Shown here piece by piece: positions 19,067-63,259 of a stretch of 64,000 bases of DNA. Under the pieces are notes generated by a model. It had not been told where the DNA came from. It worked only from the letters and a program-made list of their open reading frames with translations, and searched no databases. Numbering within the stretch: position 1 is the stretch's first letter; every line of letters starts with the position of its first letter. A program made the position numbers and the translations under genes. The stretch is from a virus: IMG/VR virus record IMGVR_UViG_3300029911_000001, positions 124,001-188,000 of that record; one strand, 5' to 3'.

Positions 19067-19142
19067 GCGGGGGTAGATTAGCGGCTAAATCATCGCCCTT
19101 ACAAGACGACTATCGTGGGTTCGAGTCCCACCCTCCGCACCA
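19067..19142 (+). tRNA. tRNA-Val (anticodon UAC)
   Basis: A 76-nt cloverleaf. Acceptor GCGGGGG pairs with CCTCCGC, the D stem is GATT/AATC, the anticodon loop is CTTACAA, the T arm is GTGGG/CCCAC, and CCA is encoded. One C-A mismatch lies in the anticodon stem. Confidence 0.88.
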
Positions 19143-19172
19143 AGATTCGCAGTATTAGATGTTCAGATGTAT

Positions 19173-19247
19173 GCGGGATTAGTTCAGTGGTAGAACGCTT
19201 CCTTGCCAAGGAAGAGGTCGAGGGTTCGAATCCCTCATCCCGCTCCA
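19173..19247 (+). tRNA. tRNA-Gly (anticodon GCC)
   Basis: A 75-nt cloverleaf with acceptor GCGGGAT/ATCCCGC, anticodon loop TTGCCAA on a CTTCC/GGAAG stem, T arm GAGGG/CCCTC and encoded CCA. Confidence 0.95.
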
Positions 19248-19309
19248 AAAGTTTAGAGTCTCAGTGACTCGATGATGTATAGGTATTTGACAATTTAGGT
19301 TTGAATTTT

Positions 19310-19383
19310 GGGGTCGTCGTTCAGTGGGAGGACAACACGCTTGCACCGTGTCAACAGGGGTTCGAATCCCCTCGGCTCCACCA
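19310..19383 (+). tRNA. tRNA-Ala (anticodon UGC)
   Basis: A 74-nt cloverleaf with acceptor GGGGTCG/CGGCTCC, anticodon loop CTTGCAC on ACACG/CGTGT, a good T arm and encoded CCA. Confidence 0.92.
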
Positions 19384-19391
19384 AAAACGCT

Positions 19392-19652
19392 CTAAATGTG
19401 GTAACGTCCACGTTGCAACGTCCCAGATTTGCAAATTGGGTGCACAAAGGGGATGAAGCCCGTCTTTGCTTGTAGCAACTCGGTGGAATTGTGGTTTTTG
19501 TTATAATTGTTTGAGGAGTGGTTGGTACATTTTCTACACCATGAATTAAGGGTTATAGTAGTACCATTCTTATTCCTTCTGGTACGAACCCCAAAATACT
19601 CCTTTGAGGCGGGATGGTTGGTGTTACATTTAGAACACAGCTTGGATTCCAT
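19392..19652 (-). CDS. Small zinc-finger protein of HNH-endonuclease type, possibly truncated
   Basis: The start ATG 19652 is chosen because GGAGA stands six bases upstream; the product is 86 residues. It opens with a zinc site (KLCSKCNTNHPASKEYFGV, then WCRKCTNHSSNNYNK), the N-terminal finger seen in many phage HNH endonucleases. The HNH core that would follow is missing: the frame ends after a short tail. It runs against the tRNAs and lies between tRNA-Ala and the RNase P RNA gene. It is either a relic or a stand-alone finger. Confidence 0.55.
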   Translation of the reverse strand: MESKLCSKCNTNHPASKEYFGVRTRRNKNGTTITLNSWCRKCTNHSSNNYNKNHNSTELLQAKTGFIPFVHPICKSGTLQRGRYHI

Positions 19653-19699
19653 TGCTTCTCCTAAGTTAGCTAATACAATGGAATCCAATAGTTGAAAAG

Positions 19700-20032
19700 A
19701 TTGCACCAGAGACTTCGGACAATCGCGACGTGAGCGCAATACTCACTTCGAGGAAATTCGGGGCATCATAGAACAACCTAGTGGGTAACGCCCACGCAGT
19801 GGAACATCACTGACGACAAGTGCCACAGAGACGAGCCTCTTCAGTGAGGAGTGAAACGCGGTAAACTTCTAGGTGATGCAACTTCAAATAGGCCGACAGG
19901 TGCTGTTCGTACCGTTATGAATCGGCGGGTTGAGGGCTAGAGCGTTGTGGTAACACAACGTCGAGACGAATGATTGTCGAACCACCGAAAGGTGGGGAAC
20001 AGAACCCCGGTTATAGAAGTCTCTGGTGCAGT
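19700..20032 (+). ncRNA. rnpB: RNase P RNA, bacterial type A
   Basis: The ends pair as helix P1: GCACCAGAGACTTC (19703-19716) with GAAGTCTCTGGTGC (20016-20029), plus three more pairs. Conserved blocks appear in order. They are GAGGAAATTCGGGGC at 19750, AGTGCCACAGAGA at 19819, GTGAAACGCGGTAAACT at 19851, CAAATAGGCC near 19885, GACGAATGATTGTCG near 19964 and AGAACCCCGGTTATAG at 20001. Helix P4 is kept by paired changes relative to E. coli, with the bulged U retained. A GGGTTG segment (about 19927-19932) would serve as the CCA-binding loop. The RNA should cut 5' leaders from the surrounding tRNA transcripts. About 333 nt, slightly shorter than E. coli RNase P RNA. Confidence 0.93.
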
Positions 20033-20271: not shown

Positions 20272-20345
20272 GCGGGATTAGTGTAGTGGTAACACGTCAT
20301 CCTTCCAAGTTGAAGTCAGGGGTTCAAGTCCCCTATCCCGCTCCA
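20272..20345 (+). tRNA. tRNA-Gly (anticodon UCC)
   Basis: A 74-nt cloverleaf with acceptor GCGGGAT/ATCCCGC, anticodon loop CTTCCAA, T arm AGGGG/CCCCT and encoded CCA. One T-T mismatch lies in the anticodon stem. Confidence 0.92.
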
Positions 20346-20438
20346 AGTTCAAGCCATCCCAATACTGACGCACAAAGGCGGGTACGGTTCTAGGGTAATG
20401 GTGCGGGAGGATAACCTAAACCGCAAGTTTAGATTCAT

Positions 20439-20515
20439 GCACCGATAGCCAAGACGGTAAGGCGACAGATTGCAACCCTGTTAATGCGGGAGTTCGATTC
20501 TCCCTCGGTGCTCCA
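20439..20515 (+). tRNA. tRNA-Cys (anticodon GCA)
   Basis: A 77-nt cloverleaf with acceptor GCACCGA/TCGGTGC, anticodon loop TTGCAAC on ACAGA/CCTGT, T arm GGGAG/CTCCC and encoded CCA. It is the only tRNA in this array that does not read a GNN codon. Confidence 0.9.
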
Positions 20516-20524
20516 AGTTTCAAA

Positions 20525-20600
20525 GGGCGATTAGCTCAGTTGGGAGAGCGTTTCCATGGCATGGAAAAGGTCAAGGGTTCGAGCCCCTTATTGTCCACCA
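20525..20600 (+). tRNA. tRNA-Ala (anticodon GGC)
   Basis: A 76-nt cloverleaf with acceptor GGGCGAT/ATTGTCC, D stem GCTC/GAGC, anticodon loop ATGGCAT on TTTCC/GGAAA, T arm AAGGG/CCCTT and encoded CCA. Confidence 0.93.
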
Positions 20601-20879
20601 GTTTAGAAGAGGATGGAAAACTGGAAAGTTCCCGGTAACGGTGACACAATCCGGCTCACTGGCTCTCTAAAAGACACTGCACGTCTCTAAATGGCAGCGT
20701 AAGCGGCACGACACGTCCACCAAGTTTGGGGTAGCACTAGCGCACACCGCATATCAGGCGCGTGTCGGCAATAGGCTTGCAGATAGAAGTAAAGCTGCGG
20801 AACACAGTTTGAACTCGTGGTACGGACACAGTTTCGTCGTCAGCCGGTGAGCTAACACCGCTGGTGCCACGCGAAGTTT
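20601..20879 (+). other. 279-base array spacer with tRNA-3'-end-like debris
   Basis: No coding frame stands out. A CACGTCCACCA end near 20713-20723 looks like a tRNA 3' terminus without a T arm. Local hairpins such as CGGTG/CACCG occur, and GTGTC/GACAC could pair at longer range. It may hold one or two decayed tRNAs. Confidence 0.3.
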
Positions 20880-20954
20880 GGTGCTGTATCATAATGCCAA
20901 TGAACTCCCCTGTCGAGGGAGCTTATGAGGGTTGAACTCCCTTCAGCACCGCCA
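20880..20954 (+). tRNA. tRNA-Asp (anticodon GUC)
   Basis: A 75-nt cloverleaf with acceptor GGTGCTG/CAGCACC, D stem TCAT/ATGA, anticodon loop CTGTCGA on CTCCC/GGGAG and encoded CCA. A T run follows at once. Confidence 0.92.
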
Positions 20955-20968
20955 TTTTTTCAACTACA

Positions 20969-21010
20969 GAACCCTTATATGTAAGTCACTTCTGATACAT
21001 ATAAGGGTTC
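20969..21010 (+). repeat. 15-bp perfect inverted repeat before an endonuclease gene
   Basis: GAACCCTTATATGTA and TACATATAAGGGTTC are separated by 12 bases and end four bases before ATG 21015. In RNA the hairpin would cover the ribosome-binding region. In DNA it is a palindromic site the endonuclease or its HTH domain might bind. Confidence 0.7.
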
Positions 21011-21014
21011 GATA

Positions 21015-21635
21015 ATGGCTAAAAAGAAAGAGAAAGAAGAAGCAATCAGGTTACGTGTTGAACACCGTCTCTCATTGGAAGTTATTTCTAAACAGTTAGG
21101 TGTATCTCAGAGTAGTTGCTCCTTATGGTTGAGAGGTTACCCTCTATCGGAGCAAGAAAAGAGCACTCGCAAACCCCCCTCTACGAAAGGTATTGCGCGT
21201 AAGATTCGGGGGGATAGGTCAAAGTTTTCTAATGTAGTTGACGGGCAGGAACTTACAAAATCTCGTAAGGGGAGAATAGCTGAATCTGCAATTCTATTTC
21301 GGTTGGCTCTTCATGGTCTGACCCCCTACGGTTCCCCGTTTGATGGTGATAAGACCGATTGGGTAGTAGAGAATGCACAAGGTAGAACTATGAAGGTACA
21401 AGTGAGGTGGGCGCGTGAGGCTAGAAAAGGGCTACCTTTTATCTCACTTCGAATTTCGGATGGGAGGCACAACACTCGTCGGTACACGGAAAATGAATTT
21501 GACTTTATTGTGGCTTACGACCTGTACACAGATACGGCTTATGTATTTAATCAAGAGGATGTAAGGAACAATACCGCACTTATCGCAGTATCAGAGGAGA
21601 GGGCGGAGAAGTGGCAACAGTTACTGGATTTTTGA
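21015..21635 (+). CDS. HTH plus PD-(D/E)XK-like homing endonuclease
   Basis: A 206-residue protein. Residues ~1-50 form a helix-turn-helix of recombinase type (EEAIRLRVEHRLSLEVISKQLGVSQSS). A basic linker follows, then at ~80-190 a core with AESAILFRLALHGL, a D in DKTDWVVE, the strand KVQVRWA and a FDFIVAYD strand. This order fits the PD-(D/E)XK fold of I-Ssp6803I-type endonucleases, with Gln in the catalytic strand position. It lies between two tRNA-Asp genes, a classic homing target region. Confidence 0.68.
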   Translation: MAKKKEKEEAIRLRVEHRLSLEVISKQLGVSQSSCSLWLRGYPLSEQEKSTRKPPSTKGIARKIRGDRSKFSNVVDGQELTKSRKGRIAESAILFRLALHGLTPYGSPFDGDKTDWVVENAQGRTMKVQVRWAREARKGLPFISLRISDGRHNTRRYTENEFDFIVAYDLYTDTAYVFNQEDVRNNTALIAVSEERAEKWQQLLDF

Positions 21636-21648
21636 TGAGGAAACAAGT

Positions 21649-21852
21649 ATGTGTCAAGCGTTTACACCGGACATGCGGAACTTCGATGAGAAGCCGTACA
21701 CACCGGATGAGCAGCGAGTAGTCAAGTACCTAGTTGAACTCACCAATGGAACGATTGGCGGCGGTGACGACCCTATCGGGTTCCTCATCGCGAGTCATGC
21801 AACGCTTTCTGACTTGAATGTGAAGCGTTGTCGAGAGGAAGCACATGGTTGA
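21649..21852 (+). CDS. Hypothetical protein
   Basis: A 67-residue product starting MCQAFTPDMRNFDEK, with AGGAAACA upstream as a ribosome site. It has a helix (DEQRVVKYLVELTNG) and a Gly/Asp turn. It overlaps the next small gene by eight bases. No family is recognised. Confidence 0.5.
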   Translation: MCQAFTPDMRNFDEKPYTPDEQRVVKYLVELTNGTIGGGDDPIGFLIASHATLSDLNVKRCREEAHG

Positions 21853-22009
21853 CTTTGAAGCAAACGGTTGGCGTAAGTTGACAGCAGAAGAGCAGGAAGG
21901 CATTCGTGAGTTTGAGCGAGTGATGAAGGAAGAGACCATACCTGCCATCGTGAAGACTATCCGTCTCCGTCAGGAATTGGCTAATGAATATCGAGGAATT
22001 TTGTACTAA
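21845..22009 (+). CDS. Small helical protein
   Basis: ATG 21845 gives 54 residues starting MVDFEANGWRKLTAEEQ, almost entirely charged helix. The overlap with the upstream gene suggests translational coupling. The stop lies five bases before tRNA-Asp. No family is recognised. Confidence 0.5.
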   Translation: MVDFEANGWRKLTAEEQEGIREFERVMKEETIPAIVKTIRLRQELANEYRGILY

Positions 22010-22014
22010 TGTTT

Positions 22015-22091
22015 GGGGATGTAACTCAGTCGGTCAGAGTATTCGCCTGTCGAGCGAAAAGTCGCGGGTTCGAACCCCGTCATCCCCGCCA
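22015..22091 (+). tRNA. tRNA-Asp (anticodon GUC), second copy
   Basis: A 77-nt cloverleaf with acceptor GGGGATG/CATCCCC, anticodon loop CTGTCGA on TTCGC/GCGAA, T arm GCGGG/CCCGT and encoded CCA. The sequence differs clearly from the first tRNA-Asp, so it is not a recent duplicate. Confidence 0.95.
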
Positions 22092-22095
22092 AGTG

Positions 22096-22200
22096 TGAGA
22101 TGTAGTGTCAAGGTGTGGCGTTTGTATACGAACGTGAGCATCATTAGAACGGGGCCTTGTTGCGGCTCTGGTGTGGGTGAAAATCCCGCCGTCTCCGCCA
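22096..22200 (+). pseudogene. tRNA-like sequence with CCA end
   Basis: GAGATG at the 5' side pairs with CGTCTC just before the GCCA end. A T-arm-like hairpin (GTGGG/CCCGC) has the loop TGAAAAT instead of TTCGAAT. The middle contains the palindrome CGTTTGTATACGAACG but no regular 7-base anticodon loop, and is about 28 bases too long. Confidence 0.4.
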
Positions 22201-22271
22201 GTTTCAAATGTTGCAGCACGGTTTCAGTGAGTCCTGAAATGGCTGAAGGTTGGAGTAAGCTGATTGAATCT

Positions 22272-22346
22272 ACACCCGTAGCTCAGAGATAGAGCGTCTC
22301 CTTGACGTGGAGAGGGTCGGGGGTTTAATTCCCTCCGGGTGTACCA
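22272..22346 (+). tRNA. tRNA-Val (anticodon GAC)
   Basis: A 75-nt cloverleaf with acceptor ACACCCG/CGGGTGT, D stem GCTC/GAGC, anticodon loop TTGACGT on TCTCC/GGAGA and encoded CCA. The T loop is TTTAATT rather than TTCGAAT. Confidence 0.9.
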
Positions 22347-22375
22347 AAGCAGGAGAGTTTGAAGTTACCAGAGTC

Positions 22376-22430
22376 GGGATGTAGCTCAGTGGTAGAGCCT
22401 AAAAGTCGCAGGTTCGATTCCTGCCTTTCC
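22376..22430 (+). pseudogene. tRNA remnant lacking the anticodon arm
   Basis: GGGATGTAGCTC, a D loop and GAGC are followed after only nine bases (CTAAAAGTC) by an intact T arm GCAGG TTCGATT CCTGC. The anticodon arm is absent, the 3' acceptor CTTTCC no longer pairs, and there is no CCA. A clear internal deletion. Confidence 0.65.
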
Positions 22431-22470
22431 TATACGACGCTCTGGTGGACTGAAAGGCGGGAAGCGTATC

Positions 22471-22650
22471 GTGCTCGTATTCACATTGCGCGTACCGCCC
22501 AAGTTTATTAATGATGAGTTTCAAGTTCGAGAGTTGGAACCAGCAGCGGAACATATAGCAGCCCTCACAGCTATCGCGTGCTAGGTAAGGGCAAGGACGA
22601 AGAGGCAGCATGGAAAGATGCTGTCCGTCGCAAGAAACAGATTTGGGGCA
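22471..22650 (+). pseudogene. Small gene apparently split by a frameshift
   Basis: GTG 22471 encodes 37 residues (ending in PAAEHIAALTAIAC) to TAG 22584. A second frame starting in the overlap (GTG 22578) continues as LGKGKDEEAAWKDAVRRKK up to the next tRNA. Joined, they read like one small charged helical protein. One base change would restore the frame. Coupled translation of two peptides is the alternative. Confidence 0.35.
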
Positions 22651-22723
22651 AGGGACTGCCGGGGGTGGTCACCTCATTCGCAATGAGGAATTCAGCGGGG
22701 TTCAAGTCCCCGTTGCTCCACCA
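22645..22723 (+). tRNA. tRNA-Ala (anticodon CGC)
   Basis: A 79-nt cloverleaf with acceptor GGGGCAA/TTGCTCC, anticodon loop TTCGCAA on CCTCA/TGAGG, T arm CGGGG/CCCCG and encoded CCA. The D stem is three base pairs (GAC/GTC) with a large loop. Confidence 0.88.
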
Positions 22724-22731
22724 AAAGTTTC

Positions 22732-22806
22732 GGGGTTATAGCTCAGAGGGAGAGCACCGCATTTGCAATGCGGGGGTCGAGATTTCAAAATTCTCTAACT
22801 CCACCA
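22732..22806 (+). tRNA. tRNA-Ala (anticodon UGC), second copy
   Basis: A 75-nt cloverleaf with acceptor GGGGTTA/TAACTCC, D stem GCTC/GAGC, anticodon loop TTTGCAA on CCGCA/TGCGG and encoded CCA. The T loop is TTCAAAA, with one mismatch in its stem. Confidence 0.88.
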
Positions 22807-22826
22807 CTTTATTAGTCAAAAGTTTC

Positions 22827-22904
22827 GGGCGGTCTGGAATAAGAGTTTCAGACAGGCTGCACATAGAGGCAGAAGGGTGAGTTCGAATCCCTTCACGTCC
22901 ACCA
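22827..22904 (+). pseudogene. tRNA-like sequence with T loop and CCA but weak stems
   Basis: GGGCG pairs with CGTCC before ACCA, a CTG/CAG D-type stem is present, and TTCGAAT marks a T loop. The T stem has two mismatches, and only a CTGC/GCAG hairpin with an 8-base loop could be an anticodon arm. Probably decayed. Confidence 0.45.
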
Positions 22905-22921
22905 ATTTTGAGGTTGATTGA

Positions 22922-23179
22922 ATGAAGTTCACACGTCGTCAGTTCTTCGCAGGGCTCCCGGTATTCATCATGCCGGGGTGGATGAAGGCGATAGCCTCAT
23001 GGTTCCAGCCTGAGGTCGCCGTAGTAAAGGCTCCTCTAATCAAGGGCTCGACCCAACTAAATGATGTCCTGCCAAAGCGTGTGATGGTACCAACGTTCGA
23101 AATAGTTTCGTGTCCGACAATCTTGCTCAAGGAAATCAAGGAGCGTAGGTTCAGGATACAAAGTGGGCCGGTAGCATAA
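22922..23179 (+). CDS. Small protein with Tat-like signal peptide
   Basis: An 85-residue product beginning MKFTRRQFFAGLPVF, which carries a twin-arginine motif (TRRQFF) followed by a modest hydrophobic stretch, as in Tat signals. The rest is a short basic mixed region without recognised motifs. It lies between tRNA-like elements, and its stop falls inside the D-arm region of the tRNA-like sequence at 23165. Export of a folded small protein is suggested but unproven. Confidence 0.55.
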   Translation: MKFTRRQFFAGLPVFIMPGWMKAIASWFQPEVAVVKAPLIKGSTQLNDVLPKRVMVPTFEIVSCPTILLKEIKERRFRIQSGPVA

Positions 23180-23227
23180 TGGGAATGCACATTCCTTGCG
23201 GCGAGTAACCGCACCCACCCGGCTCCA
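23165..23227 (+). pseudogene. Short tRNA-like element lacking one arm
   Basis: GGGCCGG pairs perfectly with CCGGCTC, and a D arm GCAT/ATGC is present. Only one further hairpin follows (TGCGG CGAGTAA CCGCA, 5 bp with a 7-base loop). The total is about 63 bases and no full CCA is encoded. Confidence 0.45.
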
Positions 23228-23243
23228 GTTTGAAAGGAGCTTC

Positions 23244-23426
23244 ATGGCTAAGTACACAGTACGTAACAAGGAAGGGCACCTTCTCGGAAGGACTGATAGC
23301 CCTGAGGTTTTGGTAGAAGAGATTTGCGAAGTATGTGAGAAGCAAGGAATTATTTACCACGTACACCCCGAGTCGGAAGAGCATAAAGGGTCTCCTAGCT
23401 TTCGACCAATGAAGTTTAGCAGATGA
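23244..23426 (+). CDS. Small hypothetical protein
   Basis: ATG 23244 with an AAAGGAG ribosome site encodes 60 residues starting MAKYTVRNKEGHLLGR. The two-strand start, then a helix with two Cys (EEICEVCEKQG) and a His-containing tail, could form a small zinc or redox site. No family is recognised. Confidence 0.6.
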   Translation: MAKYTVRNKEGHLLGRTDSPEVLVEEICEVCEKQGIIYHVHPESEEHKGSPSFRPMKFSR

Positions 23427-23452
23427 AATGGAAAAGCACGAAGGTTAAGTTT

Positions 23453-23527
23453 GGCCCTGTCCTCCAACGGTCAGGAGAGTGGGTTCTCAACCCGACAACA
23501 AGGGTTCAACTCCCTTCAGGGCCACCA
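23453..23527 (+). tRNA. tRNA-Glu (anticodon CUC)
   Basis: A 75-nt cloverleaf with acceptor GGCCCTG/CAGGGCC, D stem CTCC/GGAG, anticodon loop TTCTCAA, T arm AAGGG/CCCTT and encoded CCA. One terminal mismatch in the anticodon stem. Confidence 0.93.
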
Positions 23528-23534
23528 GTTTTAT

Positions 23535-23609
23535 GGCGCATTCGTTCATTGGTTAGGACCGGTGTTTTTCAAGCACCAGAAGAGGTTTCGATTACCTCAT
23601 GCGCTACCA
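23535..23609 (+). tRNA. tRNA-Glu (anticodon UUC)
   Basis: A 75-nt cloverleaf with acceptor GGCGCAT/ATGCGCT, anticodon loop TTTTCAA on GGTGT/GCACC, T arm GAGGT/ACCTC and encoded CCA. Confidence 0.92.
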
Positions 23610-23708
23610 ATTTCGCTGGGAGGTCGGTGTGGACTCAGGCGACTCGCTGCAACCGAGTAGGCGTTGCGGGAGATATGCGAGGGAAAGATTGATCTTCCTG
23701 TCAGAACA

Positions 23709-23782
23709 TCGGCAGTTGAAGTGGGCACCGGGGCTGAAGGGTCATCGCTAGAACAGGGTGGCCCTTCAGCAAAGTCTGCCGA
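23709..23782 (+). ncRNA. Candidate structured RNA element
   Basis: Two nested perfect stems: outer TCGGCAG (23709-23715) with CTGCCGA (23776-23782), inner GCTGAAGGG (23733-23741) with CCCTTCAGC (23762-23770). The 5' side between them is an internal loop. No known RNA class is recognised. It lies shortly upstream of a TACAAT box and a small zinc-site gene. The bases before it (23610-23708) contain a tRNA-Cys-like anticodon arm (ACTCG CTGCAAC CGAGT) but no full cloverleaf. Confidence 0.4.
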
Positions 23783-23819
23783 CCATTTGATACAATAGCT
23801 GGATGAGACGAGGCTACCA

Positions 23820-24002
23820 ATGAACTGTACTAAGTGTGGTGAATCAGCCCTCGGAGTAGCTCTTGATGGACTACCTTACTGTCATCGCACAGAGTGTATT
23901 TTATGGAAGGTGGAATTGCAACGGTATCGGGATTTGCAAGCTCTCCCTTTTCCAGCACCGCAGCGACCGTTTGCAAAAAGTTTGGTGTTTAAGCGGGATT
24001 AG
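23820..24002 (+). CDS. Small zinc-ribbon-like protein
   Basis: ATG 23820 encodes 60 residues with a CTKCGES knuckle and a YCHRTEC second half, enough for a four-ligand zinc site. Its stop codon TAG is formed by the last acceptor-strand base and positions 8-9 region of tRNA-Gly(CCC), so the gene overlaps the tRNA by 10 bases. No family is recognised. Confidence 0.5.
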   Translation: MNCTKCGESALGVALDGLPYCHRTECILWKVELQRYRDLQALPFPAPQRPFAKSLVFKRD

Positions 24003-24068
24003 CTCAGTTGGTAGAGCGTTTCCTTCCCAAGGAAAATGTCGCGGGTTCGAGTCCCGCATCCCGCTCCA
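23993..24068 (+). tRNA. tRNA-Gly (anticodon CCC)
   Basis: A 76-nt cloverleaf with acceptor GCGGGAT/ATCCCGC, D stem GCTC/GAGC, anticodon loop TTCCCAA on TTTCC/GGAAA, T arm GCGGG/CCCGC and encoded CCA. It is the last tRNA of the array and lies 19 bases before the GlyRS-like gene. Confidence 0.96.
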
Positions 24069-24086: not shown

Positions 24087-24794
24087 ATGAGCTTAGCATT
24101 GTACCCCACCGGCCAGCTTAGATTCTGGACGGAACAAGAAATCTCTCTTCGCGATGGTCTCATCCATCGTCTCTTCCATGTTGTGAAAGCTCCGCTTCAG
24201 ACTCTGAACAAGGCGTGGCGTTTCGAACGTGTTGAAGGCCCCCTACTCACTCCTGCCGACTACATCAGCCCAGCCTACACCGAGGATGACCTATGGGTAA
24301 CCAAGGGTCTAATCGCGGCTCAGGGTGTCGCCATGAGAGCGGAGACCACCGCATCCAGTTACATCTACGCCAAGCATCTGATGTCTCAGGAAGGCGGTAG
24401 CAATAAGCTACCTCTCTGCGTGTGGCAGTCAGGCAAGAGCTTCCGCAAGGAAGAGAGCGATGGTGCATCCGCATCCCGGCTCCGCTTCTTCGAGTTCTAT
24501 CAGCTTGAGTTCCAGTGCATCTACAGCAAGACCACCGGAGCCGATTACGTCGCCCCGGTCACATCTCGCGTGATGAAGGAACTTGAACTCATCACGGGGC
24601 ACAAAGCCCGTCTCGTTCGCTCCGACCGTCTCCCCTCTTATAGTGAAGCCACCTTCGATGTTGAAGTAGACTTCAACGGGCACTGGCGTGAGATGTGCAG
24701 CATTTCACAACGCACCGATTTCGAGGGTGCCAAGGTGTTGGAAGTCGCCATCGGTCTCGACCGGCTGGTAGCAGTCATCGGGGGTGGTGTCTAG
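24087..24794 (+). CDS. Glycyl-tRNA synthetase-like class II catalytic core
   Basis: A 235-residue protein carrying all class II synthetase landmarks in order. Motif 1-like WRFERVEGPLLTP lies at ~44-56. MRAETT (83-88) corresponds to LRPET in GlyRS. Motif 2 is LCVWQSGKSFRKE then RFFEFYQLEF (110-142). ATFDVE follows at 188-193, then motif 3 AIGLDR at 221-226. The best family fit by eye is GlyRS. The usual protein is about twice as long, and the anticodon-binding domain is absent. It follows tRNA-Gly(CCC) directly and overlaps the next gene by one base. It may charge phage tRNA-Gly, or be a paralogue that aminoacylates or senses something else. Confidence 0.78.
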   Translation: MSLALYPTGQLRFWTEQEISLRDGLIHRLFHVVKAPLQTLNKAWRFERVEGPLLTPADYISPAYTEDDLWVTKGLIAAQGVAMRAETTASSYIYAKHLMSQEGGSNKLPLCVWQSGKSFRKEESDGASASRLRFFEFYQLEFQCIYSKTTGADYVAPVTSRVMKELELITGHKARLVRSDRLPSYSEATFDVEVDFNGHWREMCSISQRTDFEGAKVLEVAIGLDRLVAVIGGGV

Positions 24795-28800: not shown

Positions 28801-28854
28801 GTGACTACCGACGCCTATAAGTATAGGGGCATCTCGCCTCGTTATGGGAGTCAC
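28801..28854 (+). promoter_or_regulatory. Conserved hairpin leader before the giant fibre gene
   Basis: GTGACTACCGAC is followed by a CCTATA/TATAGG hairpin, and GTGACT pairs with AGTCAC next to ATG 28855. The 12-base block and hairpin recur at 63260-63286 before a GIY-YIG gene, with pair-preserving changes. Confidence 0.6.
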
Positions 28855-31800
28855 ATGTTTAAGTTGTTTCAAAAATTCGGGATTCTTGTTACCTTGGTTT
28901 TCGCCTTTGGTTGCTCTATAGGACAGGCACAAATAAATCCAGAACAAATTCGGTGGCCTCTGCTCACAGGGACAGGTGTTCCTACCCTCTCCTGCTCGTC
29001 CGTTAACTATGGGCAACCTTACCAGAACACAGCAGTTACACCGAATACTTACTACACATGCGGCACAGATGGTTGGCAGATACGTATATCCCTCGGGCCT
29101 AAAGTGAATGCGACGAGCGTAGCCTTTGGCGCGGCATCATCCTGCGCAAACACTGCTGATCCAACAATGACACTGGATTCAACCTGCGCTATTAGGGCGG
29201 CGATTGCTTACGTTTATGCCCACGGTGCCAATGGAGTCTACCCAGCATTATATCTACCCGTTGGCAACTACAAGACTACCGCTGAGATACGAATACCCTG
29301 CGACGTATGGCTGGAGGGTGACGGGGTAACGGCAACCGTTATTTCCTTGACCAACAATGCAGCAAACGGAATTACCGTGTACGGCGATAACTCCGGCTCC
29401 GGTGATGCGTGGCAGTGCGTCGGCGGAATGCATGGTCTTGGTATTACCGCCATTGGCGCTCATCTTTACACCGCCGACCAATTGGAGATTGTCGGGTCTA
29501 CTGCATACACATTGAGGGATGTACTGGTACAGGGCGGCGGTGGCAGAGGTATCAATGTCACTGGCGGCTCAGAACGCTTGGACGCTGAAAATATCTTCAT
29601 CAACACAGTTCGCTGGCCTATGCTGTGGAAAGGTAACGAGAACCATCTCCGAAAATTGAACATTGCAGACCCCGGAAACTCCTCGGACAACTGGTGCTTT
29701 GCACAGGGAAATTGCGTTACCACACACACTTTCCCCAACTTTAATTGGAGCCTTCAGCAGACTCTAGTTTCAGCGGTTGGCTCAGGAACCCGCGCCTCCT
29801 ATGTTGTCACTGACACGGGGGGTGCCGGTTCTACTTTGGGTGTCTCCCCCATCGGCATTGGGCAATGGTTCACTGTTTCTGGAGTCACTGGAACGACCGG
29901 ACTGAATGGTGTGTTTCAGGTCGCATCGGCGACGAATGGCACCGTGACAGGTGGCTGCGCCGCGAACAGGTGCTACACCATTACTGCGGTAAATTCGACA
30001 AGTGGAACCGGCACCGGACTTGGCTCCGCAACGTTCCAACCGACTATTGTTGCAGATAGAAACGCCGCCGTTTATGCCTCCGGCTCAACATTCAAGATTG
30101 ATGGAGGATCGATCAAATCGCTAGAGTCATCTGGATGCTTTGATATTGGTAGCACGTTCGGAAGCACAATCGCTAACATTTACTGCGAGGGCTATCCGGT
30201 GAACGGCCAGCCCCACGTAAACTCATCAGTTACTGAGGGTAACCTCCCTGCTGAAACAACTACAACTGCCAGTCTTGGAGCTTCTGCGACAACCGTCACC
30301 GTGGTGGATACCTCGTGGTTCCCTAACTATGTGCAGACGGCATCTGACGCTAATAGTGCAGATATAATACAAGGAAAAATTGCCCCTTGCGACTACATCG
30401 AGCCACCAAACACCGGCTACAATGTGCAATCTGCCTGCGCTCCAACTGGCGTGTTGAAAGGCATGTGGGAAGCAGTCCAGATAACGATGACATCGACAGG
30501 TGCCCTGCTACAGCGGTGCCAGTCTGGGTCTACGGTAACGTGTACTGCCTATACGAGCGGACCTGTATGGCCTTCTGGCTCTCTGATTGCCAACGGACCT
30601 CCGGGAAACTATTCCTACCTCAAACTGGACACCGACCATTTTAATGCAATTGATGAGCCGGGGGCTAACTGGGCTGCGTATTGCAACGATCAATCATCTT
30701 TTATATGCGGAGAAATCATTGGTGGTGGTATTGAGAATGGTCTCACAACCGGGAGTTCTGGGTCTACGCTGGGAAGGCTTCAGCAAGCCCAAATCTTGTT
30801 CGACAATGATGAGTGGTGGGGCGGTATAAATTCGGCATCGCCGGGAAGTTCCTACTATGGCGACGGAACAATCAAAGCTGTAGGGCTTGGCATCGTCGCG
30901 CAAGCTACGGGAAGCACGTTCGGAAATGGGTATGCGGCGGATTCAAATGCTGTCAATGGGAAATTCACCGATGGCACAGCCAATAACGTCAATGACTCAG
31001 CACCCGGATTCGTCAATGTTCAATCGGCTGATACCTATTACCCTTCCTCTGAGTACAACAATCTCAGCAATGGCATGATCTTCAGCGCTTCGAGCGGTCT
31101 CTTCCGTAAAAACTTGAATGCCTACGGAGACCCCATTACTGGAAACAATCCGGGCGCGGGGTCGAATGGCTACAACAATGGAGCAGAGGTCGCAAACTCG
31201 ACTTGCACTTACGATACTCCGCTGACTTCAGGTACGCACTCGCTGAATCGCTGGTGTTTCGTGGGGGGACCAGGCAATAGTGGCACAGCAGCCGGTGTTG
31301 AATATGACACCTACAATACCGGGTCGTCAATATGGGTGACTCAGTTCAAAATAGACGGCACAGGAGCCATCACATTTGGGGGAGTTCCGACCTTTACAGA
31401 TGCAATTTTCCAAGCCCTACACATGGCTGCACCGGGGGATAAGGTTTATTTGGGCGATCCCGGCAACTGGCTTGAACGCGACAACACACTAAGCGGGGCA
31501 ACTCATTTTGCCGCACCGGGGTTTGACTTTGACAATAATGGTTCAGGTTCTCCACTAAACATCATGGACGGGGCTGGTGGCACATATCACGGGTACCTCT
31601 GCCTCAACTTGGATTCGTGTATCTCTAGAAATGGAAGCTCTAATCAGTTTCACTTTGGAAGCGGAGCCTATGGAGCCAGTGACGGAGCACTCTTTGCAGC
31701 CAACGCCACCTTCGGCGGCACGCTAACCGCGTTGAACGGGAGTATAAACTCCGTGATGAATGGAGCTACAGCAGAGTTTGGGATGAGTTCGTATCTCACA

Positions 31801-34800
31801 GCACCGTGTACTGCGACCGTAGCCAACACATCGCACGTTGTCACTATTCTCAGCGGATGCACGTTCCCTAGCCCGATGACAGGGTACGTGTTTCATTTGG
31901 GCGACAGTGTGTCAGGTTCCTTGGATGGCACACTGACCTATCTGTCGCCCACGACCGCCACGATGAATGTCGCGTCTACTTGGACTTCCAGCAGCGGGAT
32001 CAGCGCGACCGTGAACGCCGGAGGTACTGGCTATGCGGTCGGTGATACCGGGACAGTCAATGGCGGAAACAGCAACGCACGGTATTGGGTGCAATCCGTT
32101 TCGGGAGGTGTAGTCACTGGAATTTACATGAACAGCGGTGGGTCTGGATATACAAGTGCAACGGGAGTTGCGACTGCAACGGGAGGCATTCAGCCCGGAA
32201 GCGGCACGGGCCTTACACTCAATACCACCGCAGCATTGACACCGGAAACGCTCTATTTTGGCCCTGATAATTGCACATCGGCAAATGCTTGGTTCGCCGC
32301 CGCAAGTGGAGGAAGAGGTACTCTATCTCCGGGTGTTTATATGTCGTCCTGTCCACTTCTCCAAGGCAGTGCAAATTCATTTTTCATCGAGGGTACAACC
32401 AAGACAAATACCATCCTTGTCGATGCAGACTCTTCATCGCACCCTGATTTTATCGGAGTCGGGAATAACGGCTCCAACTCTGTTTCACACATCGCTAATA
32501 TAAGCGCGGTCGGAAACAAGAATACCACCCGTGGCTGCATCTCGATCTTTGGCCCAACGGATCACACATCGCAAGACTTCTCCTGCTATGATTCGGGCGC
32601 AGCATCCCTATACCTGAACAATGCCGTTTCAGCCAATATAAATCAGTTCTCTTCCGCCCCCTCGAATACTTCGATTGTGCAGCCGGTGAATTGCGTCAAC
32701 TACGTAGCCAGTGGCCCGTCTGAGTTTCACAGTTTGACGTGCGAAGGTGCGTCTGGGTACTCGATCAACAATACTGGACAAATGACGATCACCGCCAGCC
32801 AGATTGATTATGGGTTGCAAGGCCAACTTTACAACAGCAGTACTGGTTACGTGTACATCAACGGCGGGACTCTACTTGGATGTGAGCTGACCACATGCGC
32901 TAATGGAGTGACCAATTATGGCGTAGTAAATGTTGAGGATGGAGGGGTGTCAGTCTCCTATCACGGATATTCTGGCTCGATCTTCTATGGCTCGAATGTT
33001 GCGCTCGATGGTCTAAACTCTACCTTTGTGTTTGATTCTGGGTCGCTATGCACAATCGCCGGGTTAAGACTTGGACTAAATGGGATCACAGACAATGCAG
33101 GATGCGCCATCGCCGGACCAACTGTAAATGAGAGCACCGGAGTTGGGACTGTAGACTATCCAACGTCGCAATCGTTGCAAACGGGAATTTACGGCAATCA
33201 ACTAATAATGGCTTCCGGTCCTCTCGCCTTTAGATATGGCTGCGCTACTTATGGTAATTCTTCATGCAACGTGACTCCAATGGCACAGGTGCCGCTTGCC
33301 GCATCGACCACATGGGCGATTCAATTTCAAGGGCAGTGGAACACTGACACTACAGTTCCATTCATCAAGACCGTGACTTATGCCAGTCCTACATTCACGG
33401 TTGCAGGACAGACGGTAACATGCAAGCAGGCTACCACGAATTTCAATACCACTCGCTCCGGTCAGTTTGTCTGCTATATTGCTCCTTCATCCATCGGTCA
33501 GGTTGGATTTACGGGGTCGTGGATTATCTATCCGAACGGAATGAATACGCCGACAGGACTCGGTGCCCCTTATTGTGCTGCCGGGATATGCAACTCTACT
33601 GGCACAGCGTGGGGTTCCAGTTATGGAATCGTGGGCTCAGGGTCAAATGTAGTTCTGGCAACGTCTCCAACCCTCCAAAATAGTTTGACGGTCACTAATG
33701 CAGGTAACGTGTCTTTGACACTGACAGATACAGCCACTGGCACCATCAGCAACACCGAGTTGCTAGGAGATGGTTCGGTAAATCACTACGACGACACAGC
33801 AGTTGTCAATTACTTTGATTATGCTAGTGGCGTTTCCAACCTCTATCTATCCACTAATCAAACTACCACGACGTTTCCAAATACGTTCAATGCATTCCCG
33901 CATGGGCTTTATGCGGGAAGCACTAACCAGTTCCAGATTGATGCCAGTGGCAACGTGACAGCACCCTCTGTCAATGTGTCAGCCACAAACTACCCATTAT
34001 TTGGTAACATCCCCGGAGTCGGGAATGTGTGGTCCGCTGTGAATAGTAACTGCAAACTTTCGCAGTTGTCTGGCGGGTCGGGTGGTTACACTGATGGAGG
34101 GTACTGCTCCACACAACAATTCCTTAGCACTGTTCCCGGGTGGAACGATCTTGGAACTATTGGTGCTTATCTTCCAGCCGCGCAGAGTATTACGATGAAC
34201 AACTACTCAACTGGAATTGAGTCAGTGTTGGCTATTCAAGTAAACTCCCCGGCGGGAGGAGACCAGAATGGCATCGACTTCCAAGATCACGTTCGCAACG
34301 CTCTGAATCATGGAGGAGATCAAGGCCAGTCTGACCTTCAAATTCAGTCCTACGAGGGAGGAGAACCCACAGGGACAGTAACATCAGTCACACCTGTAGC
34401 TTCTGGAGTTCAAGTTGCACTAACATGCTCTGCGAACTGTGACCAGATGGGAATCATGTCTGGCCCACTGGTCGATATGACAGAGGCAATTCCTGCCACG
34501 GTTACTTACGTCAGCACATCGGGCGGTTTGGCTACGGTAACGTCCAGCAATACTGTTCCCGTTTCGACATCGGGTACGCTCGCCAGTGCTGCCAATGCTC
34601 AATGGTCAAACGCGACAACTTATCCTTCGGGCATCATCGTTCTATACATAGGAGCGGCGTACTACCAAAGTTTGCAAAACACAAACGTTGGGCATGAGCC
34701 GGATACCTCTCCTAGTTGGTGGACACTAGTATCTCCGCCTAGCGGGAGGCTATCCTCGAACATTGTAACGTGGAACATGAACACCGGCACTACTCTGACA

Positions 34801-37275
34801 GCCGGGGAGCTATGCGGTATCGGTGCAGGAGATGCGTCCGCTCTATATGAGATAACGCAGCTGACCTCAGTAGGCACGCCCTCCGGTGGAGTGCAGAGTG
34901 TGACCGCAAATCTCTACAATTCGCACGCCATTGGAGAACCTTTCTCCTGCGGAGGCATGGTTGGTTGGCTGGCGATCTACAAGAATTATGAACCCAACGG
35001 CCAGATGTACGCTGACAACATATACGCTTCGACTGGAGTGAACACACTCATTATCGGGCATCGGGCGGCTAACTTCTACACCAACTCTCTCCCCTCGACC
35101 TTTGCGGAGCCGGTAGCAATAGTTCCCGGTGCAGACATTGTTGGCGTGACCAATCCATCCACTGGAAATCCAGATGGAGGCTTTGCATATACTGAACCAG
35201 CACCATCGGGGACGTACACCGTTGGTCACAGCATCGTGAACCTGAACAACATTTCGGCTACGTATACAAACAGTTTTATGGACACAAATATCAATAACCC
35301 ATTTGCGGAGCGTAATACTCATGCCAATATCTTCCAAGGCAATTTTCTTGGCGGAGGTGCAAATGTGAACACTGGGTTCAACTACAACTTTACCGGCAAT
35401 GGCCAGCCTTCCTACGATCTAAATTATCTGGGCAACGGTGCTAATATCACCGCGTGGTCTATCAGCGGGGCTAACGTCGCCACATTCACCGGAAACAACA
35501 ACTTTTTGGCTGGTCAGAAATTCCGTCTCGGAGGCTTCGGTACATCCACTTTCTTCAACGGCCAAGTGGTGACTATTCTTTCCTCTGGTCTTTCGAGCAC
35601 ACAGTTCGAGGCTAACTTCACACATTCTAGCGGCTCTGGTACGGAGGCAGGAAATGCGCAAGGACTGTATCTGCCTCCATACTTTGACTATGTGGAAGGC
35701 CCGATTTCGGCTGGGCTTGTTCTTTCCGGCTGGCCGACTGGCCCTGCTTATGGACAGATCGGTGTAGCTGGAAACAGTTGCGGAACGTTCGTACTTTGTA
35801 TCGGACCTAGTGGATTTGGTCCTGATTCGCTTGCTGGAGGGATCGGGCATCTATTCCATGCATACACCGGCGAAGAGTTGGATGTGAACACCAATACACA
35901 CACCTTCAATTTTGTTGGAAATATCAACCTAACCGGAGCACTGACCTACTCAGGTCCAATTGTCAATACTTACAGGCAGACCCAAAATGGAGGAGCTTAC
36001 CTTGCTGGGTGGGCGGGTGATAACGGATGCCCGGCTGGTCCGTACAACGTCATGGGTCTGGAGTTCGGAGTTCCTCCGACATTCGCCACTGTGGGTAAGG
36101 ATAAGTGCGGTGCGCTCAACATTGTGAATGGCGAGGCTCCTACTGAGTTCCGAATGGGCGACGAGTACGGTTATGGTGCTGGTGTAATGGGGCACGTAAG
36201 TTTCAACTCTTCAGACCACGGGCCAAACTATTTTTCTAGCTGGCTGCAATCATGGATTTCCAGCGGGTCTTACGGGACTGATTACAGTCCCAACACGGTT
36301 CCTTATCAGTTTTTCCAGCAAGCAGTAGGCACGAGCACTCCGGTCAACTATGCATGGGCGGATGAGTGGCACGTCTTCAACACACTCAAAGGATTCAAGA
36401 CCCAACAGGTACAGCCTTTGCAGGCTATTCCAGTAGCGACAGGTAGCACAACAGGTGGAACTCTTGCGGCTAACCAGTACTCCTTCGTCATAACTGGCAC
36501 GACCACAACAGGAGAAACTACAGCCAGCCAGACTGCCAACTGCGTAACCACAACTGGCAGCACGAGCAGCATCAGCCTGACGTGGACAGCGATGACTGGG
36601 GCGACAGGATACAAGGTCTACCCTGCCGTTGGAAACTGTGCTGGAGGGCAGGCTGGTACCGCTAATGCTGCTTTCACCGTCTCCGGCACGAGCTACACAT
36701 TCACAGCCTTCACCTCTGGCTCAGTCGTCCCGCCGACTGAGAATACGACGGGGTATGGGATCGATGCCAGTGGCAACGCAACGGTGGCGAGTCTATCTGC
36801 TACCAGCAATATCACAGACTCCGCCCTTACCCCCGGCAACTGTGTGCAGGCGGGTACGGGTGGGCTGCTGATTGATACTGGGGGTCCTTGCTATCCATCT
36901 ACGTATAAAGTAGCTAGGTACTGGAGTATCCCCAGTGCAACATTCTCGACTGGAACATTCCTTGGACCAATCTATTTCTACGAATTTCCGATTGGTTCAA
37001 ATACACCTGTGACAACTCCTCTAATGGCGTCACTAACAGGCACAATTAGCTGCTCAGTGGCTCCTACTATTGGGTTATACGACCTAGGAACCTCCGCAAC
37101 CACAGCATTGGGTTCTTCCGCGCTAGTCACCACTTTAGCAACTGGAACAAGTGATGGAGCATACACGGCTAGTGCGAGTTTTCTAGGGTTCCACGGTCAG
37201 CACTACTATCGCGTGGCATTCACGGCTGGCTCCTGTACGACTGCCCCGCAGATTGATTTTACCGTAGACTGGTAG
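28855..37275 (+). CDS. Giant exported beta-helix adhesin or tail fibre
   Basis: About 2806 residues. ATG 28855 is chosen because GGGAG stands four bases upstream and because it begins a classic signal peptide (basic start, ILVTLVFAFGCSIGQAQ). The first 500 residues include a pectate-lyase-like right-handed helix region (LYLPVGNYKTTAEIRIP, VWLEGDG). A similar one lies around residue 1140-1220 (LSPGVYMSSCPLL). Later repeats of the type FQIDASGNVTAP and IDASGNATVASL are typical of fibre-like proteins. The length and signal peptide argue for a secreted surface protein or a fibre of unusual origin. Confidence 0.7.
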   Translation: MFKLFQKFGILVTLVFAFGCSIGQAQINPEQIRWPLLTGTGVPTLSCSSVNYGQPYQNTAVTPNTYYTCGTDGWQIRISLGPKVNATSVAFGAASSCANTADPTMTLDSTCAIRAAIAYVYAHGANGVYPALYLPVGNYKTTAEIRIPCDVWLEGDGVTATVISLTNNAANGITVYGDNSGSGDAWQCVGGMHGLGITAIGAHLYTADQLEIVGSTAYTLRDVLVQGGGGRGINVTGGSERLDAENIFINTVRWPMLWKGNENHLRKLNIADPGNSSDNWCFAQGNCVTTHTFPNFNWSLQQTLVSAVGSGTRASYVVTDTGGAGSTLGVSPIGIGQWFTVSGVTGTTGLNGVFQVASATNGTVTGGCAANRCYTITAVNSTSGTGTGLGSATFQPTIVADRNAAVYASGSTFKIDGGSIKSLESSGCFDIGSTFGSTIANIYCEGYPVNGQPHVNSSVTEGNLPAETTTTASLGASATTVTVVDTSWFPNYVQTASDANSADIIQGKIAPCDYIEPPNTGYNVQSACAPTGVLKGMWEAVQITMTSTGALLQRCQSGSTVTCTAYTSGPVWPSGSLIANGPPGNYSYLKLDTDHFNAIDEPGANWAAYCNDQSSFICGEIIGGGIENGLTTGSSGSTLGRLQQAQILFDNDEWWGGINSASPGSSYYGDGTIKAVGLGIVAQATGSTFGNGYAADSNAVNGKFTDGTANNVNDSAPGFVNVQSADTYYPSSEYNNLSNGMIFSASSGLFRKNLNAYGDPITGNNPGAGSNGYNNGAEVANSTCTYDTPLTSGTHSLNRWCFVGGPGNSGTAAGVEYDTYNTGSSIWVTQFKIDGTGAITFGGVPTFTDAIFQALHMAAPGDKVYLGDPGNWLERDNTLSGATHFAAPGFDFDNNGSGSPLNIMDGAGGTYHGYLCLNLDSCISRNGSSNQFHFGSGAYGASDGALFAANATFGGTLTALNGSINSVMNGATAEFGMSSYLTAPCTATVANTSHVVTILSGCTFPSPMTGYVFHLGDSVSGSLDGTLTYLSPTTATMNVASTWTSSSGISATVNAGGTGYAVGDTGTVNGGNSNARYWVQSVSGGVVTGIYMNSGGSGYTSATGVATATGGIQPGSGTGLTLNTTAALTPETLYFGPDNCTSANAWFAAASGGRGTLSPGVYMSSCPLLQGSANSFFIEGTTKTNTILVDADSSSHPDFIGVGNNGSNSVSHIANISAVGNKNTTRGCISIFGPTDHTSQDFSCYDSGAASLYLNNAVSANINQFSSAPSNTSIVQPVNCVNYVASGPSEFHSLTCEGASGYSINNTGQMTITASQIDYGLQGQLYNSSTGYVYINGGTLLGCELTTCANGVTNYGVVNVEDGGVSVSYHGYSGSIFYGSNVALDGLNSTFVFDSGSLCTIAGLRLGLNGITDNAGCAIAGPTVNESTGVGTVDYPTSQSLQTGIYGNQLIMASGPLAFRYGCATYGNSSCNVTPMAQVPLAASTTWAIQFQGQWNTDTTVPFIKTVTYASPTFTVAGQTVTCKQATTNFNTTRSGQFVCYIAPSSIGQVGFTGSWIIYPNGMNTPTGLGAPYCAAGICNSTGTAWGSSYGIVGSGSNVVLATSPTLQNSLTVTNAGNVSLTLTDTATGTISNTELLGDGSVNHYDDTAVVNYFDYASGVSNLYLSTNQTTTTFPNTFNAFPHGLYAGSTNQFQIDASGNVTAPSVNVSATNYPLFGNIPGVGNVWSAVNSNCKLSQLSGGSGGYTDGGYCSTQQFLSTVPGWNDLGTIGAYLPAAQSITMNNYSTGIESVLAIQVNSPAGGDQNGIDFQDHVRNALNHGGDQGQSDLQIQSYEGGEPTGTVTSVTPVASGVQVALTCSANCDQMGIMSGPLVDMTEAIPATVTYVSTSGGLATVTSSNTVPVSTSGTLASAANAQWSNATTYPSGIIVLYIGAAYYQSLQNTNVGHEPDTSPSWWTLVSPPSGRLSSNIVTWNMNTGTTLTAGELCGIGAGDASALYEITQLTSVGTPSGGVQSVTANLYNSHAIGEPFSCGGMVGWLAIYKNYEPNGQMYADNIYASTGVNTLIIGHRAANFYTNSLPSTFAEPVAIVPGADIVGVTNPSTGNPDGGFAYTEPAPSGTYTVGHSIVNLNNISATYTNSFMDTNINNPFAERNTHANIFQGNFLGGGANVNTGFNYNFTGNGQPSYDLNYLGNGANITAWSISGANVATFTGNNNFLAGQKFRLGGFGTSTFFNGQVVTILSSGLSSTQFEANFTHSSGSGTEAGNAQGLYLPPYFDYVEGPISAGLVLSGWPTGPAYGQIGVAGNSCGTFVLCIGPSGFGPDSLAGGIGHLFHAYTGEELDVNTNTHTFNFVGNINLTGALTYSGPIVNTYRQTQNGGAYLAGWAGDNGCPAGPYNVMGLEFGVPPTFATVGKDKCGALNIVNGEAPTEFRMGDEYGYGAGVMGHVSFNSSDHGPNYFSSWLQSWISSGSYGTDYSPNTVPYQFFQQAVGTSTPVNYAWADEWHVFNTLKGFKTQQVQPLQAIPVATGSTTGGTLAANQYSFVITGTTTTGETTASQTANCVTTTGSTSSISLTWTAMTGATGYKVYPAVGNCAGGQAGTANAAFTVSGTSYTFTAFTSGSVVPPTENTTGYGIDASGNATVASLSATSNITDSALTPGNCVQAGTGGLLIDTGGPCYPSTYKVARYWSIPSATFSTGTFLGPIYFYEFPIGSNTPVTTPLMASLTGTISCSVAPTIGLYDLGTSATTALGSSALVTTLATGTSDGAYTASASFLGFHGQHYYRVAFTAGSCTTAPQIDFTVDW

Positions 37276-63068: not shown

Positions 63069-63155
63069 GGGCAGATGCGTGAGTGGCTAAAACGGGCTGG
63101 CTGTAACCCAGCTTCCCTAGTGGATTCGGAGGTTCAAATCCTCCTCTGCCCACCA
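63069..63155 (+). tRNA. tRNA-Tyr (anticodon GUA)
   Basis: An 87-nt type II cloverleaf with acceptor GGGCAGA/TCTGCCC, anticodon loop CTGTAAC on GCTGG/CCAGC, a long variable arm, T arm GGAGG/CCTCC and encoded CCA. Confidence 0.95.
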
Positions 63156-63166
63156 AAATTGAATAC

Positions 63167-63254
63167 GCAAGTAAGGCGACTATCGGTTGGTCGCACCGGG
63201 CTGTAAACTCGTTGCCCTAAAAAGCCGCTGGGGGTTCGACTCCCTCTACTTGCA
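63167..63254 (+). tRNA. tRNA-Tyr-like (anticodon GUA), second copy
   Basis: An 88-nt type II cloverleaf with acceptor GCAAGTA/TACTTGC, a GCGAC/GTCGC D stem, anticodon loop CTGTAAA, a long variable arm and a T arm with GGTTCGACT. CCA is not encoded and the anticodon stem has one mismatch and one G-T pair. Confidence 0.8.
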
Positions 63255-63259
63255 CTTTC

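Follow-up and report, generated by a model that had tools for sequence, protein, structure and literature searches.

A full-length class A RNase P RNA gene within the tRNA array of a large phage genome

A tRNA array in a large phage genome carries a gene for RNase P RNA. The window analysed here is a stretch of 64,000 nucleotides, representing bases 124001-188000 of a viral record of 231,108 bases (IMGVR_UViG_3300029911_000001). Its plus strand at 19707-20029 matched the Rfam covariance model RF00010 (RNaseP_bact_a) with 179.6 bits (E 2.3e-56) over the entire model (1-367 of 367), the gathering cut-off being 100 bits. The covariance model and the covariation across phages together confirm, at the level of sequence, the class A RNase P RNA that the initial annotation had proposed, and the bacterial model is matched along its full length. 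It is most probably (about 0.8) a functional RNase P RNA of the phage, which would be transcribed with the array, form a hybrid enzyme with the host RnpA and cleave phage pre-tRNAs.

The predicted secondary structure is complete in most of its helices. The two ends of the gene form the 17-bp helix noted in the initial annotation, with all 17 pairs made (Table 1). Every pair is also made in P2, P5, P7, P8, P9, P12, P15, P17, P18 and P19, and P3 has a single mismatch. The folding energy of the RNA corresponds to a z of -4.7 against 100 shuffles. The P16/P17 region was poorly paired in the Rfam alignment because the model contains no pseudoknots; reading by hand resolved it as P17 (GGUGC/GUACC) around the loop GUUC. 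The type-A pseudoknot P6 between J5/7 and L17, which lies outside the Rfam model, is present as GAAC/GUUC.

Table 1. Positions of the RNase P RNA gene, its structural elements and the neighbouring tRNA genes in the window.
Feature	Position	Strand	Evidence
tRNA-Val(tac), tRNA-Gly(gcc), tRNA-Ala(tgc), upstream of RNase P RNA	19067..19383	+	ARAGORN, Rfam
RNase P RNA (class A) gene, P1 end to P1 end	19700..20032	+	RF00010 and P1
P1 5' arm	19700..19716	+	pairs with 20016-20032, 17/17
P4 5' strand AAU[U]CGGGG, bulged U	19755..19763	+	8/8 pairs around bulge; covariation, 25 distinct RNAs
P6 pseudoknot 5' strand GAAC	19771..19774	+	4/4 pairs with 19905-19908; covaries across phages
P6 3' strand GUUC in L17	19905..19908	+	closed by P17 19899-19903/19909-19913
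L15 GGU motif, expected partner tRNA 3' RCCA	19928..19930	+	sequence; columns nearly invariant among phage RNAs
P19 hairpin CCACC-GAAA-GGUGG	19982..19995	+	5/5 pairs
P4 3' strand CCCCGGUU	20005..20012	+	pairing and covariation
P1 3' arm	20016..20032	+	pairs with 19700-19716
tRNA-like element without CCA, 8 nt past P1	20041..20157	+	sequence, fold; read by eye
Rest of array: Gly, Cys, Ala, Asp, Asp, Val, Ala, Ala, Glu, Glu, Gly	20272..24068	+	ARAGORN, Rfam
Two tRNA-Tyr genes, start of next tRNA cluster	63069..63255	+	ARAGORN, Rfam

Comparison with 57 bacterial RNAs showed that the window RNA retains 71 of the 96 core columns. Absence of the P13/P14 region accounts for 14 of the 25 departures, and six of the 11 substitutions make up three compensating double changes. 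Two of them are in P4 (19757 G>U with 20010 C>G, and 19760 C>G with 20008 G>C), so that the intact helix with its bulged U and compensating changes stands as first described; the third is the P8 pair 19781/19795. P13/P14 are also missing from about half of the phage RNAs. Such absence is 'not unusual', these helices being usual and not defining (PMC8172020). The pair flanking the bulged U, located where the catalytic metal is bound, is U-G in the window RNA whereas G-C is near-universal, and this change together with the loss of P13/P14 could weaken catalysis. The RNA scores below 59 of the 60 Pseudomonadota RNAs sampled, marking it as divergent from typical host genes.

To analyse conservation among phages, 27 RNAs of viral contigs were aligned and the 25 distinct rows were counted. 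In P4 and P6, 99.3% of the cells are paired, and this value falls to 32-47% when the partner strand is slid. The two helices contain 36 double-change cells, while the shuffles gave a mean of 9.1 and none of the 500 was as high. P4 occurs as CCGGG, CGGGG, CGGAG, CGGCG, CCGAA, CAGGA and other variants with a partner strand that nearly always matches, and P6 occurs in other phages as GAGC/GCUC, GGAC/GUCC and GGGC/GCCC. Both the bulged U and GGU of L15 are retained in the alignment, the GGU columns being nearly invariant. As judged from the aligned sequences, the pattern of change in P4 and P6 is one of selection for a working fold, not of decay. An RNA with a kept fold, trimmed of P13/P14 and altered beside the bulged U of the catalytic site, in a record where no protein partner was found, could also be a decoy, which would titrate host RnpA and lower host tRNA maturation for takeover without cleaving tRNAs. 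This explanation is improbable, as the features required for catalysis and for reading CCA (the covarying P4, the bulged U and GGU) are what is best conserved across phages and a decoy needs none of them; the location of the gene within tRNA arrays also speaks against it.

The contig carrying the gene belongs to a phage, as confirmed by its gene content. Genes for a portal protein, a phage DNA polymerase, a tail sheath, a DnaB-like helicase, a ribonucleotide reductase, a UvsX-like recombinase and PhoH are present in the record. A phrog_2 match first taken as a terminase on this contig turned out to be PhoH, and the real large terminase (TerL) is on an overlapping contig. This second assembly (G006, 183,684 bases) is identical to the record across 13,983 bases around the RNase P RNA and again for 2,899 bases at the left end of the record, beyond which it continues for about 37 kb that include TerL. 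The overlap therefore extends the genome to at least about 268 kb, and the description of the RNA as phage-borne was borne out. ARAGORN called 32 tRNAs in the record. The same phage possesses a permuted (two-piece) tmRNA (L036 11465-11732, minus strand; RF04321, 85 bits) with the predicted tag ANSNVALPIAA, and a tRNA with a CTA anticodon, a possible amber suppressor (L036 7323-7396, minus strand). An ORF of 2824 aa (window 28801-37275, plus strand) is almost without PHROG match.

RNase P RNA recurs in many large phages, which the initial annotation had understated. Two exact DNA patterns were searched in IMG/VR and matched 31 and 72 stretches, respectively. With redundancy removed, RNase P RNA was recognised in about 24 more viral contigs of 22-463 kb; these counts are lower bounds because the patterns require exact matches. 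The gene in these contigs frequently has a same-strand tRNA no more than about 12 nt away, on one or both sides. The nearest tRNAs are 2 nt away on each side in L086, 9 and 6 nt in L007, and 0 and 8 nt in L002. The RNase P RNA and tRNA models slightly overlap in L074 and L055, and the closest tRNA is several kb away in L050, L063 and L076. Nine of the approximately 24 contigs have a recognisable large terminase. Protein-level comparison confirmed it for L007 (on a contig of 463 kb), L050, L063, L076 and the twin L023, and profile matches revealed it in the contigs of L069, L078, L088, L031 and L017. The L008 contig also has a large terminase, with an RNase P RNA that is only half visible. The phrog_2 match of L084 is a helicase and was discarded as a terminase. 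Among the INPHARED phages, queried with four RNAs and one 25-kb stretch of the window, no convincing cultured carrier was found. A viral contig of 385 kb contains a GOLLD RNA (L072 5070-5488, minus strand) in a region rich in tRNAs.

Several matches were rejected as phage RNAs. Prophage flanks or contamination explain L090 and probably L004-L006, L013 and similar loci, and human-fecal 'Bacteriophage sp.' records with a match were left out of the count as they come without tRNA array or annotation. Microcystis phage MaAM05 (L089, MW495066.1) does not serve as an isolated-phage example: its match is surrounded by glyS, fliM, engB and fabI, and the search for a terminase gave none. This 274-kb GenBank 'phage' resembles a bacterial chromosome and its match is an rnpB-like sequence. 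Such a bacterial-looking record, and the pattern matches in IMG/VR that are bacterial rnpB beside prophages, raise the question whether the window RNA is itself a passive hitch-hiker, either a decaying captured host rnpB or a product of bacterial assembly or binning contamination. For the window RNA this is largely refuted and highly improbable. Phage tRNAs and replication genes flank the RNA, the changes in it are compensating and not random, the second assembly agrees with the first base for base, and the gene recurs in terminase-bearing contigs. Furthermore, no close bacterial relative was found in 299 Pseudomonadota and 198 Bacteroidota genomes.

The position of the gene inside a tRNA array, with tRNAs on both sides in the same strand, was upheld. 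All eleven tRNAs downstream of it encode CCA, and small ORFs are interspersed among them. Considering all the tRNAs of the window, CCA is encoded by 15 of 16 and U is present at -1 in 12 of 16; bacterial RNase P prefers substrates with U at -1. The element just past the RNase P RNA resembles a tRNA in its 7-bp acceptor (GAGUGCU/GGCACUC), TTCGAAC T-loop and canonical T-arm, has a hairpin inserted in the D-loop region, and was called neither by ARAGORN nor by Rfam. Between the RNase P RNA and this element no terminator-like site was called, in a scan that was overall not above chance. A small ORF on the minus strand (19392-19739), weakly similar to endonuclease VII/HNH proteins (PHROG E 6e-6), lies between tRNA-Ala and the RNase P RNA and probably accounts for the 324-nt gap in the array. 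A PD-(D/E)XK nuclease-like gene is situated within the array (21015-21635, plus strand) and a class II tRNA-synthetase-like gene, below the Pfam cut-off, just past it (24087-24794, plus strand). The tRNA clusters of the window, L036 and L040 are nearly sorted by the first codon base: GNN codons (plus Cys) at 19-24 kb, ANN (plus Gln) in L036, and UNN and CNN (plus one Met) in L040 and the 63-kb cluster of the window.

This organization suggests how a functional RNase P RNA of the phage may be produced. It would be transcribed together with the tRNAs, as a member of the array, and freed from the array transcript largely through tRNA end-processing. Since tRNAs are tightly packed around the gene in the relatives, the ends of the RNase P RNA would have to derive from tRNA processing, and the 3' end is therefore plausibly cut by RNase P itself; in the window, cleavage at the downstream tRNA-like element may contribute to the release. 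The RNA and the host RnpA protein would then form a hybrid holoenzyme that removes the 5' leaders of the many CCA-encoding pre-tRNAs of the phage. The benefit may be that processing is sustained under a high tRNA load or when host RNase P is limiting.

RnpA (PF00825) was not found in the record, which is linear and incomplete, nor in 31 other records, and the HARP-type PIN_5 domain (PF08745) was not found in the record nor in any of 16 records searched. An rnpA gene may be outside the contig or diverged past the reach of PF00825. Partnership with the host RnpA would fit the absence of both RnpA and PIN_5 genes. Failure to find RnpA in the record would also suit an RNA that acts alone, and a working RNase P RNA could have phage tmRNA, phage mRNAs or host transcripts as its main substrates. 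Bacterial RNase P has tmRNA among its substrates, and this phage has a permuted one. We nevertheless regard these variants as having little probability, as the placement in the array, the encoded CCA and the U at -1 make the tRNAs the obvious substrates. Cleavage of phage pre-tRNAs by a hybrid with host RnpA is the preferred candidate function.

To understand the ancestry of the phage RNAs, a tree of 73 RNAs was analysed. The phage RNAs form at least two groups, and a single clade for all of them was rejected (p-AU 0.0003), so more than one origin seems likely from the tree. The nearest neighbour of the window RNA is that of a related phage (L067), and neither RNA similarity nor the tree pointed to a particular host. 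Some bacterial RNAs, sampled for sharing the rare P4, nest within the phage group. The CGGGG P4 was rejected as a phage-only mark, being present in 22 stretches of about 85,000 genomes, some with clearly bacterial neighbours. A Burkholderiales family (L103, L105, L106, L112; genomes G033, G035 and G533-G535) has exactly one RNase P RNA, of the phage-nested type, in all five genomes searched, and these RNAs are divergent (195-218 bits). Grouping the Burkholderiales RNAs with other Pseudomonadota was mildly rejected (p 0.024), while the counterpart grouping for Bacteroidales was not (p 0.125). The nesting could be due to ascertainment and long branches; for the Burkholderiales family, replacement of the host RNase P RNA by a phage version is possible. 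A wider scenario, in which giant phages repeatedly adopted a self-releasing RNase P RNA that forms hybrids with host RnpA and exchanged it with bacteria in both directions, is tentative and rather unlikely. In its exchange part, the Burkholderiales family and some Bacteroidales (Paludibacteraceae) would possess the phage version as their only detected copy. If true, an essential ribozyme of some bacteria has been replaced by a phage version.

RNase P RNA belongs to the oldest ribozymes, is nearly universal and is considered to be a gene of cells. The open-access literature, a scope outside which preprints and subscription journals fall, yielded no report of such an RNA encoded by a phage, and the finding is probably new to the literature. 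It indicates that giant phages carry a catalytic RNA of the tRNA machinery, set in their tRNA arrays. Phage P4 covaries where bacterial P4 hardly varies, providing natural variants of the catalytic core, and the system opens a test of virus and host RNase P RNAs competing for one protein. It also makes rnpB alone an unsafe marker of cellular DNA in metagenomes.

The phage RNA resembles bacterial class A RNase P RNA (M1 RNA, rnpB; RF00010) in its full-length match with P1-P9 and in sharing the bulged U of P4, the P6 pseudoknot, P12, P15, P17, P18 and GGU. It differs from bacterial M1 RNA in being phage-encoded in a tRNA array, in the lack of P13/P14, in the 71 of 96 core columns and in the rare P4. 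In T4-type phages, tRNAs are matured by host RNase P, and T4 is wholly host-dependent. Here too the phage tRNA precursors are expected RNase P substrates but, unlike T4, the phage brings the RNA. The RNase P RNAs of CPR bacteria are reduced, often without P13/P14/P16/P17, and known from metagenomes (PMC8172020), and the phage RNA is likewise reduced and metagenomic. In contrast to the phage RNAs, those of CPR bacteria are cellular genes and about two thirds lack the tRNA-CCA-binding motif (PMC8172020), whereas the phages keep GGU. Suites of translation genes, with many tRNAs and tmRNA among them, have been described in huge phages; the main text of that study (Al-Shayeb et al. 2020, PMC7162821) makes no mention of RNase P or its genes rnpA and rnpB. 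With its large tRNA set and tmRNA, the present phage resembles these translation suites.
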